Origin: Armatimonadota bacterium
GTDB lineage: Bacteria; Armatimonadota; Fimbriimonadia; Fimbriimonadales; Fimbriimonadaceae
Direction: 5' to 3'
NCBI GenBank assembly: GCA_027451905.1
Contig: DAIDHV010000002.1
Span: 372,001 to 436,000, forward strand
DNA: 64,000 bases
Positions 44,160 through 50,867 of the stretch are shown here, piece after piece. Every line of letters begins with the position of its first letter. Within the stretch, counting starts at the first letter, position 1. Below the pieces are notes generated by a model. It did no database searches and was not told the DNA's origin. It was given only the letters and a program-made list of their open reading frames with translations. Made by a program: the position numbers and the translations under genes.

Positions 44160-44969
44160 TCAATGTCCGTATTGACCTCCTGTTGTCGTCAGCTGCTTGG
44201 CGAAGTTTACAGGGGCTAGCCCCTGTAAACTTCGGTGCGGCCTACGGGTGTTGTAGTGATCTTGAAAGTCATCGAGTTCAGATTGAAGCTCCTGACCAGT
44301 GGAATATCGGCTTCCCCTTAAAAGCTCGTCTCTGAGCTTGTCAAAGAGGCTCTCAACTCGTCCATTTTGCCAGGGCTTACCTGGCTGAATGAAGGCGGAT
44401 TCCACCCCAGGGGGAAGCTTGATAGCTCTAAACTTAGGTCCGTTATCAGAAACGATTTGAGACGGCTTGGCACGAGTTAAGAAAAGCCATTTAAGCTCTT
44501 CCTGAACCGATATTGCCGGAAATGAAGGGGCTGCCTTAAGAAGAAGGCACTCTCTTGTAAAACAGTCTAGAACCGCCAAAATACGTGCCTGACGACCATT
44601 CTCTAGCCGCTCAGTGGCAAAATCCATACACCAACCTTGGTTAGGAGCTGTGTAGCTCAAAGATGGTAGCTTTGGTACTTGTAGCTTGCGACGAACCCGG
44701 CGAGATAACCTTAATGATTCCTCCTTCCAGATCCGGTGCACTGCCTTGATGTTCACGTGAGGAAGCAGAGCATGAACCCTCCGAAAACCATAGCGAGGAT
44801 TCGCTTTTGCAAGTTCAAGAACCTTGATTCGTAATTCTGGGTTGCGATCCTTTGGAGCGTCAAGACTTGTGCCTCGAGAGATATCGCCCGTCTTACAGGA
44901 ACGACTTCGGGAACAGCCTCGCGCCAACAGGGATTTGACGACCCGTTTCCTTGAAGCGAGGCTTACCAT
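44160..44969 (-). CDS. IS3-family transposase, catalytic subunit (OrfB)
   Basis: About 269 residues from the ATG at 44969; the frame is open further upstream because OrfAB can be made by frameshift. The integrase-fold DDE triad is visible: Asp in QGWCMDFATERL, Asp in QIVSDNGPKFRA and Glu in NGRVESLFDKLRDEL. An HTH-like region (RYGFRRVHALL) precedes it. The end GLAPVNFAKQL is family-typical. Confidence 0.9.
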   Translation of the reverse strand: MVSLASRKRVVKSLLARGCSRSRSCKTGDISRGTSLDAPKDRNPELRIKVLELAKANPRYGFRRVHALLPHVNIKAVHRIWKEESLRLSRRVRRKLQVPKLPSLSYTAPNQGWCMDFATERLENGRQARILAVLDCFTRECLLLKAAPSFPAISVQEELKWLFLTRAKPSQIVSDNGPKFRAIKLPPGVESAFIQPGKPWQNGRVESLFDKLRDELLRGSRYSTGQELQSELDDFQDHYNTRRPHRSLQGLAPVNFAKQLTTTGGQYGH

Positions 44970-45226
44970 TTTCCCTTGATCACTTCCTTGCAGGCAGCGA
45001 TATCTAGGCTCAGTTCGCTGATGATATGACGTAAACGGCGATTCTCGGCCTGAAGCGACTTTAACTCGGCTAACTCTGACTTGCTCATGCCTGAATATCT
45101 TTGTCGCCAACGCTGAATCGTTTTATCCGTGATCCCATACTTGCGAGACGTGCCCGCAATGGTTGCCCCAGCCTCAATCTCTTGAAGCACCTTGATGATC
45201 TGTACTTCTGAGTAGCTATTTGCCAT
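44963..45226 (-). CDS. IS3-family transposase OrfA with programmed -1 frameshift
   Basis: 87 residues from ATG 45226. Helix-turn-helix (AGATIAGTSRKYGITDKTIQ, then RWRQRY) and a C-terminal leucine-zipper-like helix (LAELKSLQAENRRLRHIISE). Its end, GGA AAA TGG TAA, contains the slippery heptamer G GGA AAA (44975-44969). A -1 slip leads into orfB at its ATG, so an OrfAB fusion transposase can be made. Confidence 0.88.
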   Translation of the reverse strand: MANSYSEVQIIKVLQEIEAGATIAGTSRKYGITDKTIQRWRQRYSGMSKSELAELKSLQAENRRLRHIISELSLDIAACKEVIKGKW

Positions 45227-45390
45227 GTCTTTTGTAATCCTATCTCTATGCCAAAGACAGACATTTGACACTGATCATTTTACAGGGAACCAGCCAGGTG
45301 GCCTGCTAGCGGGTAGAACACATGATCACAAGGCGGGTTTAATCCTAGCGCAAGGCATTAGCAACCAATTCTTGTTATAAGTCTGGATGC

Positions 45391-45472: not shown

Positions 45473-45500
45473 TTGACAAAAAAAGGAGTACGGCTATGCT
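45473..45500 (+). promoter_or_regulatory. Sigma-70-like promoter of cassette copy 1
   Basis: TTGACA (45473-45478), spacer of 16 bases, then TATGCT (45495-45500). The second copy has the same two hexamers at 48169 and 48192, so the promoter was duplicated with the cassette. Confidence 0.7.
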
Positions 45501-45558
45501 AGGGTAGTTGCTCATGAAGACTAAGTTTTTTTCCGGCCAAGGGGGCCCGCTAATTAAA

Positions 45559-47123
45559 ATGAAGAATATTCTGATTGGGGGGGGGCAATCTTTGCCCTTT
45601 TCCTTCTCCCGCTGAGCGCGTTTGCCCAGCATTATGATATAGGGGTGGCAGTGTCACCCAACATGTTTCCGGGAGATTCTTCGGCTGGGGGGTCCAGTCC
45701 TTCGGGAAGTTTTATTGGCTCGGGGTCCTCGACCTCTCCTATTGCTGGCAATATCACATTCACATATACTTGGAATGCAGATGGCACGGGAGAGAAGCCG
45801 CCTCCTGCCTTGATCTGCACCCTTTCCGACGAAGCTGATGTCTGGTTTAGCAACACTGCGGCTGTGGCTCCTAGCATGGCAAACGTGAATGATGGATATG
45901 GGACCCCGGCCCAGGTTCAGCCTGGTCCAAGGGTCATGTCTTATAGTAGTCACGTTTTAGTTATACAGAACCCAGGCACCTCATTCCAAGAAACGATAAA
46001 TGGCATTTATGCGTCTTCCAATAGCAATTGGAGCCTATTCAATGCCGACACATTCGAAACCTCTGTGACCATTCCAACCATCATGGTAACAGGGGCACCC
46101 CTTGTCCAAGGAATTCCTCAAATTATAGAGGGGCAAGCTGTAGAACCTGCCCTCGCCCCCGCAATGGACCAATTTACATCCTCTTACACAATTTTGGCTC
46201 AGGGCTGTCGGCCAGTGGAAGATAACCCAATAGTGTACGATCAGCCGTACGCATATCAACTCTATACTAGCCATTTGAACCAGCCAGGTGGAAATCCTGC
46301 CGTGTTTGTATTTACTCAAGCAGACGGTTCAGGTACGCCTCAGATGTCAAGCAACTATATAAATGCCACCATTACTGCCCAATTTACAGTCCAGGCAGAT
46401 AGTGGTCCGGTCCAAGTCTCCGCAAGCCAAGGGGTTCACGTAGAGGCACCGCAGTCAAACTATGGCTCCGGCGATCGACCGACAGCTGGGGCAGTTTCCC
46501 CGAATCAAGAGGGGGCGATGGCCTCGGGATCACTTGACCTCCTAGGGGACCCTCCTGGTCTCGTGCTCAGTGGCGCAATCGCACCGAATGGGACAAATGC
46601 AGGCATGTACCTTTACGGCTGGGTCGTCGATCCCGCACTTGTACAGCAGAATCGGTGGCCCATTGGTCAAAATTTTTGGCTGCAGGAGTTTATTGACGAC
46701 GGGTACGAATATAAGGTAGGTTCGAGTAATCCCACCTCGCCGCTACAGGCAGGTGTTACGTACTTGGACGGCCCGTATGTCAATCCGCCAAAGAATTATG
46801 ACAATTTCCTGCAAATTCCATCGTCGCCTTCGAGTCCCAATTTCGGCGATTCTCCCGGCATTGGATTTGAGGGCAACCAGGAAGTTGTGGAGAATAGTCA
46901 GTTTTTCACATACCTAATGTACATTGCGCCACAGGCACCAGGTAGTGGCATTGCCTCGCTTCCGATCCCTATTGCGGAAATAGAATGGACCGCAAAAGGG
47001 GCGGCGCAACTAGTCAACGGGAGTTGGGTTCCGCTAGGCTCTACTTTCGACACCGGCTCAAAAATCAACCTGAACCCAAAGCTACCGTCAGACCTTCCTT
47101 CTTGGACCCTAATCTGGAACTAA
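45559..47123 (+). CDS. Secreted protein, cassette copy 1, signal peptide out of frame at a G9 tract
   Basis: The first ORF part starts ATG AAG AAT ATT CTG ATT, followed by nine G. After the run, the frame of the long product reads AIFALFLLPLSAFAQ, a standard signal peptide ending with a Ala-x-Ala site. The initiating codons are one base short, so translation from the ATG stops after 18 codons. With ten G (or seven) the gene is continuous, about 521 residues. The mature part, from QHYD, is beta-rich with Pro/Asn/Gly, including blocks GIPQIIEGQ, RPVEDNPIVYDQPYAY, SGPVQVSASQGVHVEAP and LPSWTLIWN at the end. No known family. It is followed three bases later by its partner gene. Confidence 0.7.
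45577..45585 (+). repeat. Nine-base G homopolymer inside the signal-peptide region, copy 1
   Basis: Exactly nine consecutive G bases after ATT and before CAATC. The length sets the reading frame: 7 or 10 joins the ATG to the signal peptide, 8 or 9 does not. Such tracts are well-known slippage sites for replication or transcription. Confidence 0.85.
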
Positions 47124-47126
47124 ACA

Positions 47127-48050
47127 ATGAAAGAAACAACCAACATGCAAAGACACTATCTTGGCGCCTTCCTCGCATTAACTACCTTGGCTTTGCCTGC
47201 ACTTACGGTGGCTCAAGTGAGTAATGATGGTCAACAAACGTCCAACGCCAGCACTATTATGAGTCCACGTGCTCAGGCCAAACGAGACCTCATAAGAAGG
47301 CTCGAAGCTGGGTCCGCTGAGATTTCCGCCAACATCGATCGGCAACTCCTACCCTACTATCACCGGGCAAAAGAGTTGGAACGAGAAGGGACAACTAAGG
47401 ACCTTGATGCTTACTTGACTAAGGTCAGGTTGGCAAGGCTCTCAACCGAAGAATATGCAGATTCCAAGTATGGCACGTGGATTAGCCAAACATTGCTAAC
47501 GAACCTTATGGGCCAAGATGATATGAAGGGCATTTGGACGGCCCAGGGAAGTCCAAAGTCCAAAAAGACTATAGGATACAACTACCTTAATATGGCGTCC
47601 GCTGCCTATATGGGATTCACATACCCAGGTGAGTATCAGCTTCTAAAGAAGGAGCTTAACTTGCCCTCGCCAGAGCCAGAGTCTGCAAGGCAGGTCGACT
47701 TTGGGGATTGTCCAAAAGGGGTTGAGATCTTTGCTCTCTATCGTTACAACGAGAGCATGGGCGACACTAAGTTTACCGACATGGCTAAGGAATGGGCGAT
47801 AAGGCACATGTATAATCACCTTTTGCCTGGCAATGACAATCTTTTTCTTGCCTTGCTGAGCGATACTTGGTCTTCAAATCCGCCTGCCGCACTTGCTGCT
47901 CTCCGGCACCATTTTCCCCACGGAGTACCACCGAGTCTCATGAAGGACTACGGAACCAGTTGGCTAGTCGGGACGATCGCCTATAATGTCGAAGAAGACG
48001 CCAAGCATCCACCAAAGAATCTTGGCAAGTACACAGGGCCAGAAAAATAG
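47127..48050 (+). CDS. Exported partner protein, cassette copy 1
   Basis: 307 residues. ATG 47127 lies three bases after the previous stop; ATG 47145 is an alternative start. A signal peptide is visible (LGAFLALTTLALPALTVAQV). The mature protein is helical and charged with blocks LLPYYHRAKELEREG, FDAYLTKVRL-type spacing in DAYLTKVRLARLST, KYGTWISQTLLTNLM, ALAALRHHFPHGVPPSL and a conserved end GKYTGPEK. It shares these blocks with the partner in copy 2. Family unknown. Confidence 0.65.
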   Translation: MKETTNMQRHYLGAFLALTTLALPALTVAQVSNDGQQTSNASTIMSPRAQAKRDLIRRLEAGSAEISANIDRQLLPYYHRAKELEREGTTKDLDAYLTKVRLARLSTEEYADSKYGTWISQTLLTNLMGQDDMKGIWTAQGSPKSKKTIGYNYLNMASAAYMGFTYPGEYQLLKKELNLPSPEPESARQVDFGDCPKGVEIFALYRYNESMGDTKFTDMAKEWAIRHMYNHLLPGNDNLFLALLSDTWSSNPPAALAALRHHFPHGVPPSLMKDYGTSWLVGTIAYNVEEDAKHPPKNLGKYTGPEK

Positions 48051-48168
48051 TGAGCCGGTTGGGCAAAACGCATTTCCGCCTCTATTTTTTAATTGGTCAA
48101 AGGCACTCAATTTAGGCTCCTTGTTTGGTTTGAACGACGATCTTCAGGATAATTACAATAAAATGGGC

Positions 48169-48197
48169 TTGACAGAGGACGATAAGGGTGATATGCT
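48169..48197 (+). promoter_or_regulatory. Sigma-70-like promoter of cassette copy 2
   Basis: TTGACA (48169-48174), 17-base spacer, TATGCT (48192-48197), then a leader conserved with copy 1 (TCATGAAGAC, later CCCGCTA and TTAAAATG). In this copy the leader folds GCGGG-GAAA-CCCGC just before the ATG. Confidence 0.75.
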
Positions 48198-48255
48198 GGA
48201 CAAAATTGTCATGAAGACAAAGAATTTTGCCAGGCGGGGAAACCCGCTACTTAAA

Positions 48256-49913
48256 ATGAAGAATATTCTGATTGGGGGGGGGCAATCTTTGCCCTTTTCC
48301 TTCTCCCACTGAGCGCGTTTGCTCAACACTATGACGTGACGTACTCGGAATCGCCGGGAATGTTTGCTGGCGGAAGCCAAGCTGGATTCTACCTGCCTTA
48401 CGGCGATTTTGAAGTTTATGGGGATACTCAAGGGACAGGGAACAGCCAGAACAGTCCGATTGGAGGGACTATCACGTTCACCTTTACCTACAATCCAGAT
48501 GGAACCTCCCAGCCGCCCCCTCAGTTTGTGATTTACCGAATCTTCACAGAGGCTGGCACTTCGTTTAATGGTGCGGTGGCCAATATTTCTGAGGCTAGCG
48601 ACAACGACGGTTTTGGAGATCCTGAGGTTCTTGATAAGGTCCAAAATGGGGTGAGTTCTTCAAAGTCTAACAATCCGAATTCTTCGAACGAAGGCTACCA
48701 TGACCTTGTTGTTCAAAATCCGGGCAAAAGCTTTACCGAGACCATCCAACTTTCCGCCAGCGCGGTCGGCCCTTTGCCATCGGGTGCTTCCGCAAGTAAC
48801 TTTGTAGAAGCAATCGTGAGTGCGGACATGCCCCCTACTATTGATGTGTACGCGGCACCTGTTGAGGGGGGTTACCCGCAAATTATTGAGGGTCAGAGGT
48901 GTGAAGCAGAAGTGTCAGGCAACACCTGGGATGCAAAGAGTGCCGTTGTTACTGTTCAGGGCTGTAATCCAGTTCAAGATATTCCGATTGATTACACAAA
49001 GCCCTACGCTTACAAGCCATTTAATGGTGGAAATGCTGTATTGGATGGCGGAGGTCCGATATTCGTCTTCACCCAGGATGATGGTTCCGAAAAGCCGCAT
49101 ATTGGATCATCTTGGTGGAATGCGACGATAACCGCCGCCTTTAACGTCCAAGAAGATTCGGGACCGGTGCCATTATCGGTTAGTCAGAATGTCCAAGTTC
49201 AGGCTCCAGCCTCGTACTACGGTCTCGGGTTAAAGTTCAGCCTCAGCTACCTTAACCAACAAGCGTTAAACGCGCTAGAGCAGGCTCAGATGGGCCTTGA
49301 GAGCTTGGATCCCATCGGCACCAACCCGGTTGACGATTGGCTAAAGCTCATGAATGCGGGAGGCACCGCAAACCCAGAATATGGAATGTATGGAATTTAC
49401 CTTTACGGCTGGGTACAGGACCCCTCAATAGCCGCCCAAGAATCGGTAACTCCTGGTAGATATTTTTGGATCCAAACGTTCGTCGACGGGTCTACTTACT
49501 CCACCGGGGGAGTCACCACACCGTTCATGCCGAGCCCCTCAAGCACCTATGAGGACTATCTGGTCGAGGCAGATGGGCTCCATGCAGCGGCTAATAGTCA
49601 GCATATGATTAAACCAGACTTTGCTGATTCACCTGGCTTTAATCTTAGCCTTATAGGTGCCCAGAAGGTCACGGCCTCTGCTGAGTACGAGACGTATTTG
49701 ATGTATACGCCGCCAGATATCGCCAGCGGGTACCCATCTTTAGACGTCCCAGTTGCCGAATTGACTTGGACCGCACTGGGAGGTGCCGCCTTTAATAACT
49801 TAGCCTGGACTCCAGAATTTGGCTCCTCCTTCGACAGCGGGTCTTCGCTCAATCTAGATCCAGTCTCTCAAATCGTCCTGCCGTCTTGGTCACTTGTTTG
49901 GAACCCAAATTAA
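48256..49913 (+). CDS. Secreted protein, cassette copy 2, signal peptide out of frame at a G9 tract
   Basis: Same architecture as copy 1. The ATG opens MKNILI, then nine G. The long frame reads AIFALFLLPLSAFAQHYDV directly after the run, so here too one extra G or two fewer is needed to join them. The continuous product would be about 552 residues. Blocks shared with copy 1 include GYPQIIEGQ, QGCNPVQDIPIDY-TKPYAY, EDSGPVPLSVSQNVQVQAP, GIYLYGWVQDPS and LPSWSLVWN. The internal GTG 48336 could start a product without a signal, but nothing supports this. Its partner follows four bases after the stop. Confidence 0.7.
48274..48282 (+). repeat. Nine-base G homopolymer inside the signal-peptide region, copy 2
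   Basis: Again exactly nine G bases between ATT and CAATC, in the same codon context as copy 1. Confidence 0.85.
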
Positions 49914-49916
49914 AAA

Positions 49917-50867
49917 ATGAATATCAACCTAAAAACTCAGACATTCCGAATCGGAACCACCTTTGTCTCCTTGGCTATTTCTTGTTGCATCATGGCTCAA
50001 TCGTCACCCCCAGGTCATTCGGGCGGTGTGAGCCAGAGCCAAAAACAAACCTCCGCACATAACTCAAGACAGGAGCTAATGACAACGGGGAGCAGGGCGG
50101 GCGCAGCGTGGGTGAAGGCAATAAATGCTAATGACAGGGCCGAAGAAGCTGCAATTGATTGCGAACTTCTACCCGAATACCACAAAGCCAAGGATTTGCA
50201 GAGGGAAGGCAAAACAAATGAGTTAGATGCTTTCTTGACGAAGATGCGACTAACCGTCCTAAAGAAAAGTGATTACAAGGTCTCTAGATACGGCAGGTGG
50301 ATGAACCAAACCCTAATGACGAACTTAACCGACGAGCAAAATATGAAGATGCTCTGGATTGCAGAGGGTAAGCCCCGCACCAAAGAAGCTTTGGCTGGTA
50401 ATCCAATCGGAGAAGCGGCTGCCGCCGCGCTCGGGATTACCTATCCCGGTGAGTACCAAAAACTCAAAAATGACCTAAAAATTGGTAGCCCAGTCGATAA
50501 GTGGGACAAACCGTTTGACTTTGGAGATAACCCCCGAGGGGATGAGGTATTGGCGCTGATGGAGGTGAGCAATTTTTATAATCCTGACGCTGGAGCCTAC
50601 GAGGGCCAAATATGGATTTTTGCCATGCGAAGGCTTTATTATCACCTCATGCCGGGGAGTGATGAGGTGTTTCTTGCCCTCCTTTGGGGCACCTATACCA
50701 GCAATCCTACCGAAGCCCTCAAGGCTTACCATCGCCACTTCCCCAATGGTGTGCCAAAGTGGCTTGGTGGTAGCGGAGTTAAGCCTCGCTCTCTTCTCAG
50801 TGTCCTCGAAAGTATAACAGGCACTGCATTCCATTACACAAGCAAATACACCGGTCCCGAAAAATAG
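49917..50867 (+). CDS. Exported partner protein, cassette copy 2
   Basis: 316 residues, ATG three bases after the upstream stop. Signal peptide in TFVSLAISCCIMAQSSPPG. Homologous to the copy 1 partner through LLPEYHKAKDLQREGKTNEL, DAFLTKMRL, RYGRWMNQTLMTNL, DFGDNPRGDEVLALMEVSN-type segments, ALKAYHRHFPNGVPKWL and the terminal KYTGPEK. Mostly helical and polar; no catalytic motif is seen. No recognised family. Confidence 0.65.
   Translation: MNINLKTQTFRIGTTFVSLAISCCIMAQSSPPGHSGGVSQSQKQTSAHNSRQELMTTGSRAGAAWVKAINANDRAEEAAIDCELLPEYHKAKDLQREGKTNELDAFLTKMRLTVLKKSDYKVSRYGRWMNQTLMTNLTDEQNMKMLWIAEGKPRTKEALAGNPIGEAAAAALGITYPGEYQKLKNDLKIGSPVDKWDKPFDFGDNPRGDEVLALMEVSNFYNPDAGAYEGQIWIFAMRRLYYHLMPGSDEVFLALLWGTYTSNPTEALKAYHRHFPNGVPKWLGGSGVKPRSLLSVLESITGTAFHYTSKYTGPEK

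Follow-up and report, generated by a model that had tools for sequence, protein, structure and literature searches.

Poly-G tracts in signal-peptide codons and promoter spacers as candidate phase-variation switches of secreted-protein genes in Fimbriimonadaceae (Armatimonadota)

Two interrupted signal peptides in one window

The window analysed here, a stretch of 64,000 nucleotides from a genome of the family Fimbriimonadaceae, carries two paralogous genes for large secreted proteins, and a secreted partner of 307-316 aa starts within 4 nt 3' of each of them (Table 1). In both large genes a tract of nine G's lies between an ATG and the remainder of the signal peptide. The codons ATG AAG AAT ATT CTG ATT (MKNILI) run into the tract, and the frame that continues behind it, AIFALFLLPLSAFAQ, is displaced by one base. 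A tract of G10 or G7 joins the two frames; with G9 as assembled both genes are out of frame. The positions of the tracts, the MKNILI codons before them and the remedy of one more G or two fewer were all described in a first-pass annotation of this DNA, and the sequence bears them out. Behind the tracts the frames are free of stop codons to 47123 (512 codons) and 49913 (543 codons). No alternative start rescues either gene, as the AIFALF frame has a TAA closely upstream and no start codon in between. Another ATG, 45 nt 5' of the inner one and in the same frame, makes a better start and is likely the actual start of each gene. Translation from it gives MKTKFFSGQGGPLIK- in gene 1 and MKTKNFARRGNPLLK- in gene 2, downstream of TTGACA and TATGCT boxes that stand 16 or 17 nt apart.

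Table 1. Position of tracts, leaders, promoter-like boxes and partner genes in the window, and of further tracts in the source genome (contig:position)
Feature	Position	Strand	Description
Promoter-like boxes, gene 1	45473..45500	+	TTGACA 45473-45478, 16 nt, TATGCT 45495-45500; same box pair at gene 2
Leader, gene 1	45514..45576	+	ATG 45514 (MKTKFFSGQGGPLIK) and inner ATG 45559 (MKNILI), one frame
G9 tract, gene 1	45577..45585	+	Within signal-peptide codons, out of frame as assembled
Remainder, gene 1	45585..47123	+	AIFALFLLPLSAFAQ and mature secreted protein, without Pfam family
Partner gene 1	47127..48050	+	307-aa secreted protein, five-member family in source genome
Promoter-like boxes, gene 2	48169..48197	+	TTGACA 48169-48174, 17 nt, TATGCT 48192-48197
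Leader, gene 2	48211..48273	+	ATG 48211 (MKTKNFARRGNPLLK) and inner ATG 48256 (MKNILI), one frame
G9 tract, gene 2	48274..48282	+	Within signal-peptide codons, out of frame as assembled
Remainder, gene 2	48282..49913	+	AIFALFLLPLSAFAQ and mature secreted protein, about 40-45% identical to gene 1
Partner gene 2	49917..50867	+	316-aa secreted protein, 85% identical to copy on contig C5
C10 tract	C1:447153		Between well-formed start (MRDFTSFKFRRLANHLLKTVGC) and signal peptide of 1202-aa RHS-repeat protein
C11 tract	C6:8864		In frame, at end of signal peptide
G11 tract	C5:9327		Between TTGACA and TAGTCT, 12 nt 5' of secreted-protein ATG
G10 tract	C2:225658		After TTGACT, closely 5' of secreted protein

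The two tracts are the sole runs of at least 8 of any base in the window. Runs of G7 and G8 are absent from it, and G9 stands out against the real run-length distribution. Dinucleotide shuffles of the window yield as many G8 matches, so that G8 is not rare by this test; we set the test aside because shuffling makes more runs than the real distribution contains.

Around the tract the two genes are identical over about 57 nt, and their whole proteins are only about 40-45% identical. The leaders have therefore been homogenised and amount to less than two independent events, and the block that they share is a sign of recent recombination or duplication. The first-pass annotation had argued from two independent loci; the identical tract and context stand, the independence was overstated. 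An IS3-type transposase pair in two overlapping ORFs (window 44160-45271, minus strand) ends about 240 nt 5' of the first G9 gene, and this element may have helped to duplicate the region.

A Pfam search with the G9-gene products and their partners gave no significant family. The large protein has no homolog in the 112 other genomes of the class, and no public genome matched the leader in an exact-pattern scan. Structure predictions reached a mean pLDDT of 30 for the secreted protein and 48 for its partner, too low to use. Additional copies of the partner are present on contigs C5 and C12 of the source genome, with only remnants of the large gene, 50-65 codons long, close by (L039:2920-5110 and L042:3034-3987); one of these copies is the 85% identical relative of the window's second partner.

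Other tracts in the source genome

The 2.87-Mb assembly contains eight G/C runs of at least 9 bases, with lengths of 9, 9, 9, 10, 10, 10, 11 and 11. Six of them are situated at the 5' ends of secreted-protein genes, and the other two have no clear gene. The RHS leader on contig C1 repeats the situation of the window: its C10 puts the frame one base out, and C11 or C8 joins it. The RHS gene itself, with its long interrupted leader, occupies L034:306-3914 on the minus strand (G000:C1:443461-447066). The single named relative of its product places the source genome in Fimbriimonadaceae. Several RHS C-terminal fragments, 80-91% identical, are found at C1:172013-188733 and C5:31787-33907, as if they formed a store of variant tips. 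We found no excess of G runs of at least 9 in the source genome over its relatives, the counts being ordinary; the signal is the position of the tracts, not their number.

Enrichment at signal-peptide genes in nine genomes

We collected 86 G/C runs of at least 9 from the source genome and eight other genera of Fimbriimonadaceae, and took random positions within the same loci as the expectation. By a simple hydrophobicity rule for signal peptides, of whose matches a few are probably spurious, 17 of the 86 tracts lie at most 60 nt 5' of a signal-peptide ORF with the G's on the coding strand (3.6 expected, random 4.2%, P 1e-7), and 14 have an ATG on one side and on the other a signal-peptide ORF that is 250 codons or longer or extends past the end of the sequence retrieved (3.0 expected, random 3.4%, P 1.4e-6). 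Runs of G4-G7 gave 4-7% and A/T runs of 6 or more gave 3-5%, against 20% for G runs of 9 or more (P 1.5e-6); the effect is therefore specific to long tracts. Tracts 5' of genes with the C's on the coding strand were at background (5/86), RHS promoters excepted. Roughly 60% of the 86 tracts have no assigned role.

The signal-peptide design of the window recurs in other genera, in unrelated proteins and in mixed phase. One genome (G007) has in-gene tracts of both kinds: ...VAVSSL-GGG-ASAQ and ...VLVT-PPP-VTAQ are out of frame, ...VGLT-GGG-YAQ is in frame. In-frame cases include the tracts of L177 and L040. In another genome (G010) two paralogs have a common leader with G9 and do not differ at all over 143 nt 5' and 946 nt 3' of the ATG; their phase is set by the choice between two candidate starts. 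The two ATGs of this shared leader (L195, L198) overlap in different frames. From either of them a plausible signal peptide can be read as far as the G9, and the tract might switch between the two starts. Several of the tract genes L036, L040, L121, L203 and L218 encode small Cys-rich secreted proteins, and some adjoin pilin-like genes with an N-methylation motif. A link of tracts to pilin-like genes (7/140 against 2.6% at random) was too weak to claim.

Tracts in promoter spacers across the class

A second position of the tracts emerges from a survey of 113 genomes of the class. The pattern TTGACA-N0..12-G8 or longer is represented by 44 distinct tracts in 25 genomes and 17 genera; the reversed pattern gave at most 9 matches, and tracts preceding TTGACA numbered 7 distinct cases. 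The recurrent order is TTGACA, G tract, TANNNT, ATG. A TANNNT box starts at most 3 nt after the tract in 15/34 cases with TTGAC upstream versus 9/126 without it (P 1.6e-6), and an ATG follows the box by 5-10 nt in 12 cases with TTGAC and 2 without. As the tract lies between TTGACA and TANNNT, its length sets the promoter spacing, which mostly falls between about 15 and 22 nt, on either side of the usual 17. The -10 box abutting the tract, often 5-10 nt from the ATG, suggests a near-leaderless mRNA.

In these relatives the tract length also differs among copies of a promoter. In one genome (G012) a promoter of the form ttgacata-C(n)-(aa/tg)gtccttatcct is present in three near-identical copies, in which n is 10, 11 and 12. 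Two of them precede RHS proteins and the third a different secreted-protein pair. These tracts are the most direct evidence of instability, although they belong to paralogs in one genome and not to alleles. The two RHS genes (L093 and L094, on G012:C16) are 93% identical to residue 1109 and then continue into unrelated C-termini of the polymorphic type.

A proposed model of switching

We propose that the G9 tracts of the window are phase-variable contingency tracts and belong to a lineage-wide set with both translational and transcriptional switching, a reading to which we assign a probability of about 0.8. The proposal builds on the position and frame of the tracts, their enrichment over the controls, the promoter architecture and the length differences between near-identical promoters. 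In the window a long mononucleotide tract in the 5' coding part sets the frame by its length, and the gene is intact apart from it, as are the partners and the promoter boxes. Such loci are multiple and favour surface or secreted products, both in the source genome (6/8) and in the nine genomes (17 and 14 of 86). The first-pass annotation had already suggested a contingency-locus system. If it is right, further tracts should occur 5' in genes for surface or secreted proteins of the lineage, and they should differ in phase and in length; all three were found, and the suggestion is thereby supported.

According to the model, slipped-strand mispairing at replication would gain or lose single G's. 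A tract of G10 or G7 would make the signal peptide continuous and let the protein be exported; with G9 translation would stop about 9 codons past the tract, so that both window genes would have been assembled in the OFF state. In the translational mode the tract would act from within signal-peptide or leader codons, as in the window genes, the RHS leader and the genes of G007 and G010. In the transcriptional mode it would lie between the two promoter boxes, -35 (TTGACA) and -10 (TANNNT), the latter a few nt before the ATG, and set their spacing by its length. Tract length would then vary within populations, its state would control expression, and the benefit would consist in varying the surface and secreted proteins.

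We further lean towards the view that Armatimonadota, which are largely free-living and not known for phase variation, possess here a family-wide set of poly-G phase-variable genes, with a common promoter architecture and signal-peptide tracts, that switches rapidly changing secreted proteins, among them RHS proteins whose C-termini vary.

Alternative explanations

In the case of an undercount in sequencing or assembly, each of the two tracts would in truth be G10 and the genes would be ordinary, a caveat that the first-pass annotation had raised. Indeed, exactly one base is missing in each window tract and in the RHS leader, which is the usual direction of homopolymer error. However, G10, C10, G11 and C11 were assembled in the same genome, and G10, G11, C12, C16 and G20 across this or related genomes, so no length cap operates; and miscounting cannot produce an enrichment at signal peptides or promoter spacers that depends on position and run length. 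The caveat has thus lost weight, and we consider an undercount unlikely. It could still be true of the window's two tracts, but a true G10 would remain a slippery site at a lineage-typical position, and the lineage-level conclusion would be unchanged. Long G runs might also arise by chance from Gly/Ala-rich signal peptides and G-rich promoters, and the G8 matches in the window shuffles agree with that. Yet the enrichment is confined to run lengths of 8-9 and above, an equal enrichment of G5-G7 was tested and not seen, and TTGACA stands far oftener before a tract than after it; composition or codon bias is thus a highly improbable source of the pattern.

Constitutive recoding, whether by ribosomes slipping by -1 on G-GGG-GGG or by a G gained in transcriptional slippage, would give a fixed fraction of full-length product. 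One same shift would rescue all three out-of-frame tracts of the source genome, and the heptamer G GGG GGG could serve for a -1 slip. The RNA downstream of the window tracts nevertheless has no significant stimulatory structure (z -0.7 and -0.9), in-frame tracts exist in L177 and L040, and recoding cannot account for tracts in promoter spacers, which makes it quite unlikely as the general explanation. We rate as very unlikely that the two window genes are pseudogenes next to an IS3 element, with a single frameshift that recombination afterwards copied, despite the nearness of the transposase pair to the first leader, the family remnants on C5 and C12 and the homogenised leader block. Both frames (512-543 codons) are open apart from the tract, nothing is damaged in the promoter boxes or the partner genes, and decay does not explain why the sole lesion falls at a lineage-typical tract. 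Phase variation by tract length remains the reading that we prefer.

Significance and comparison with known systems

To our knowledge, homopolymer phase variation has been studied almost only in host-associated pathogens, where it is explained by immune escape. The open-access literature, outside which most subscription journals fall, yielded no report that connects Armatimonadetes or Fimbriimonas with phase variation, homopolymeric tracts or slipped-strand mispairing, in agreement with the first-pass remark that such a system is not described in this lineage. Armatimonadota are known mainly from environmental samples, and a recurrent set of poly-G switches in them would call for another selective force, such as phage, predators, rivals or surface attachment. 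If our proposal is true, host-free environmental bacteria would commonly vary their secreted antagonistic or adhesive proteins at the level of the population, and annotation pipelines will keep presenting such genes as pseudogenes or with wrong starts. The loci are precise enough for a clear and cheap test of switching.

The RHS copies of G012, 93% identical over 1109 residues and with unrelated C-termini, resemble RHS/WapA-type polymorphic secreted proteins. The RHS genes of Fimbriimonadaceae differ from these in having a homopolymer tract in the promoter or leader, and we know of no other such case.

A survey by Orsi et al. (2010) described 5' homopolymeric tracts, namely poly(A) and poly(T) no longer than 7 bases, as a general device of inactivation (PMC2831843); in Fimbriimonadaceae, in contrast, the tracts are long poly-G or poly-C and are placed at secreted-protein genes. 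Promoters with poly-G between -35 and -10, or closely 5' of the transcription start, are established for porA of Neisseria meningitidis and for tp0126 and tpr genes (tprL) of Treponema pallidum (PMC3899988, PMC7864442). The candidate promoters of the relatives are similar in that genes of exported proteins are preceded by a G tract, about 8-12 long, which determines the distance between -35 and -10, around 17 nt. They differ in that the -10 box abuts the tract, often 5-10 nt from the ATG, and that many unrelated genes are concerned. The closest match to the window is presented by pilC1 and pilC2 of Neisseria, whose signal-peptide region contains a homo-guanine tract (PMC5354566, PMC5953494). 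As in the gonococcal pair, two paralogs of a secreted protein carry a G tract of at least 9 in the signal peptide, placed to turn the gene ON or OFF by frameshift; the proteins are unrelated, the phylum is another one, and switching, demonstrated for pilC, is here a proposal. The mechanism would thus be of a known kind, shared with pilC, porA and T. pallidum, and by our literature search the phylum appears to be a new setting for it.
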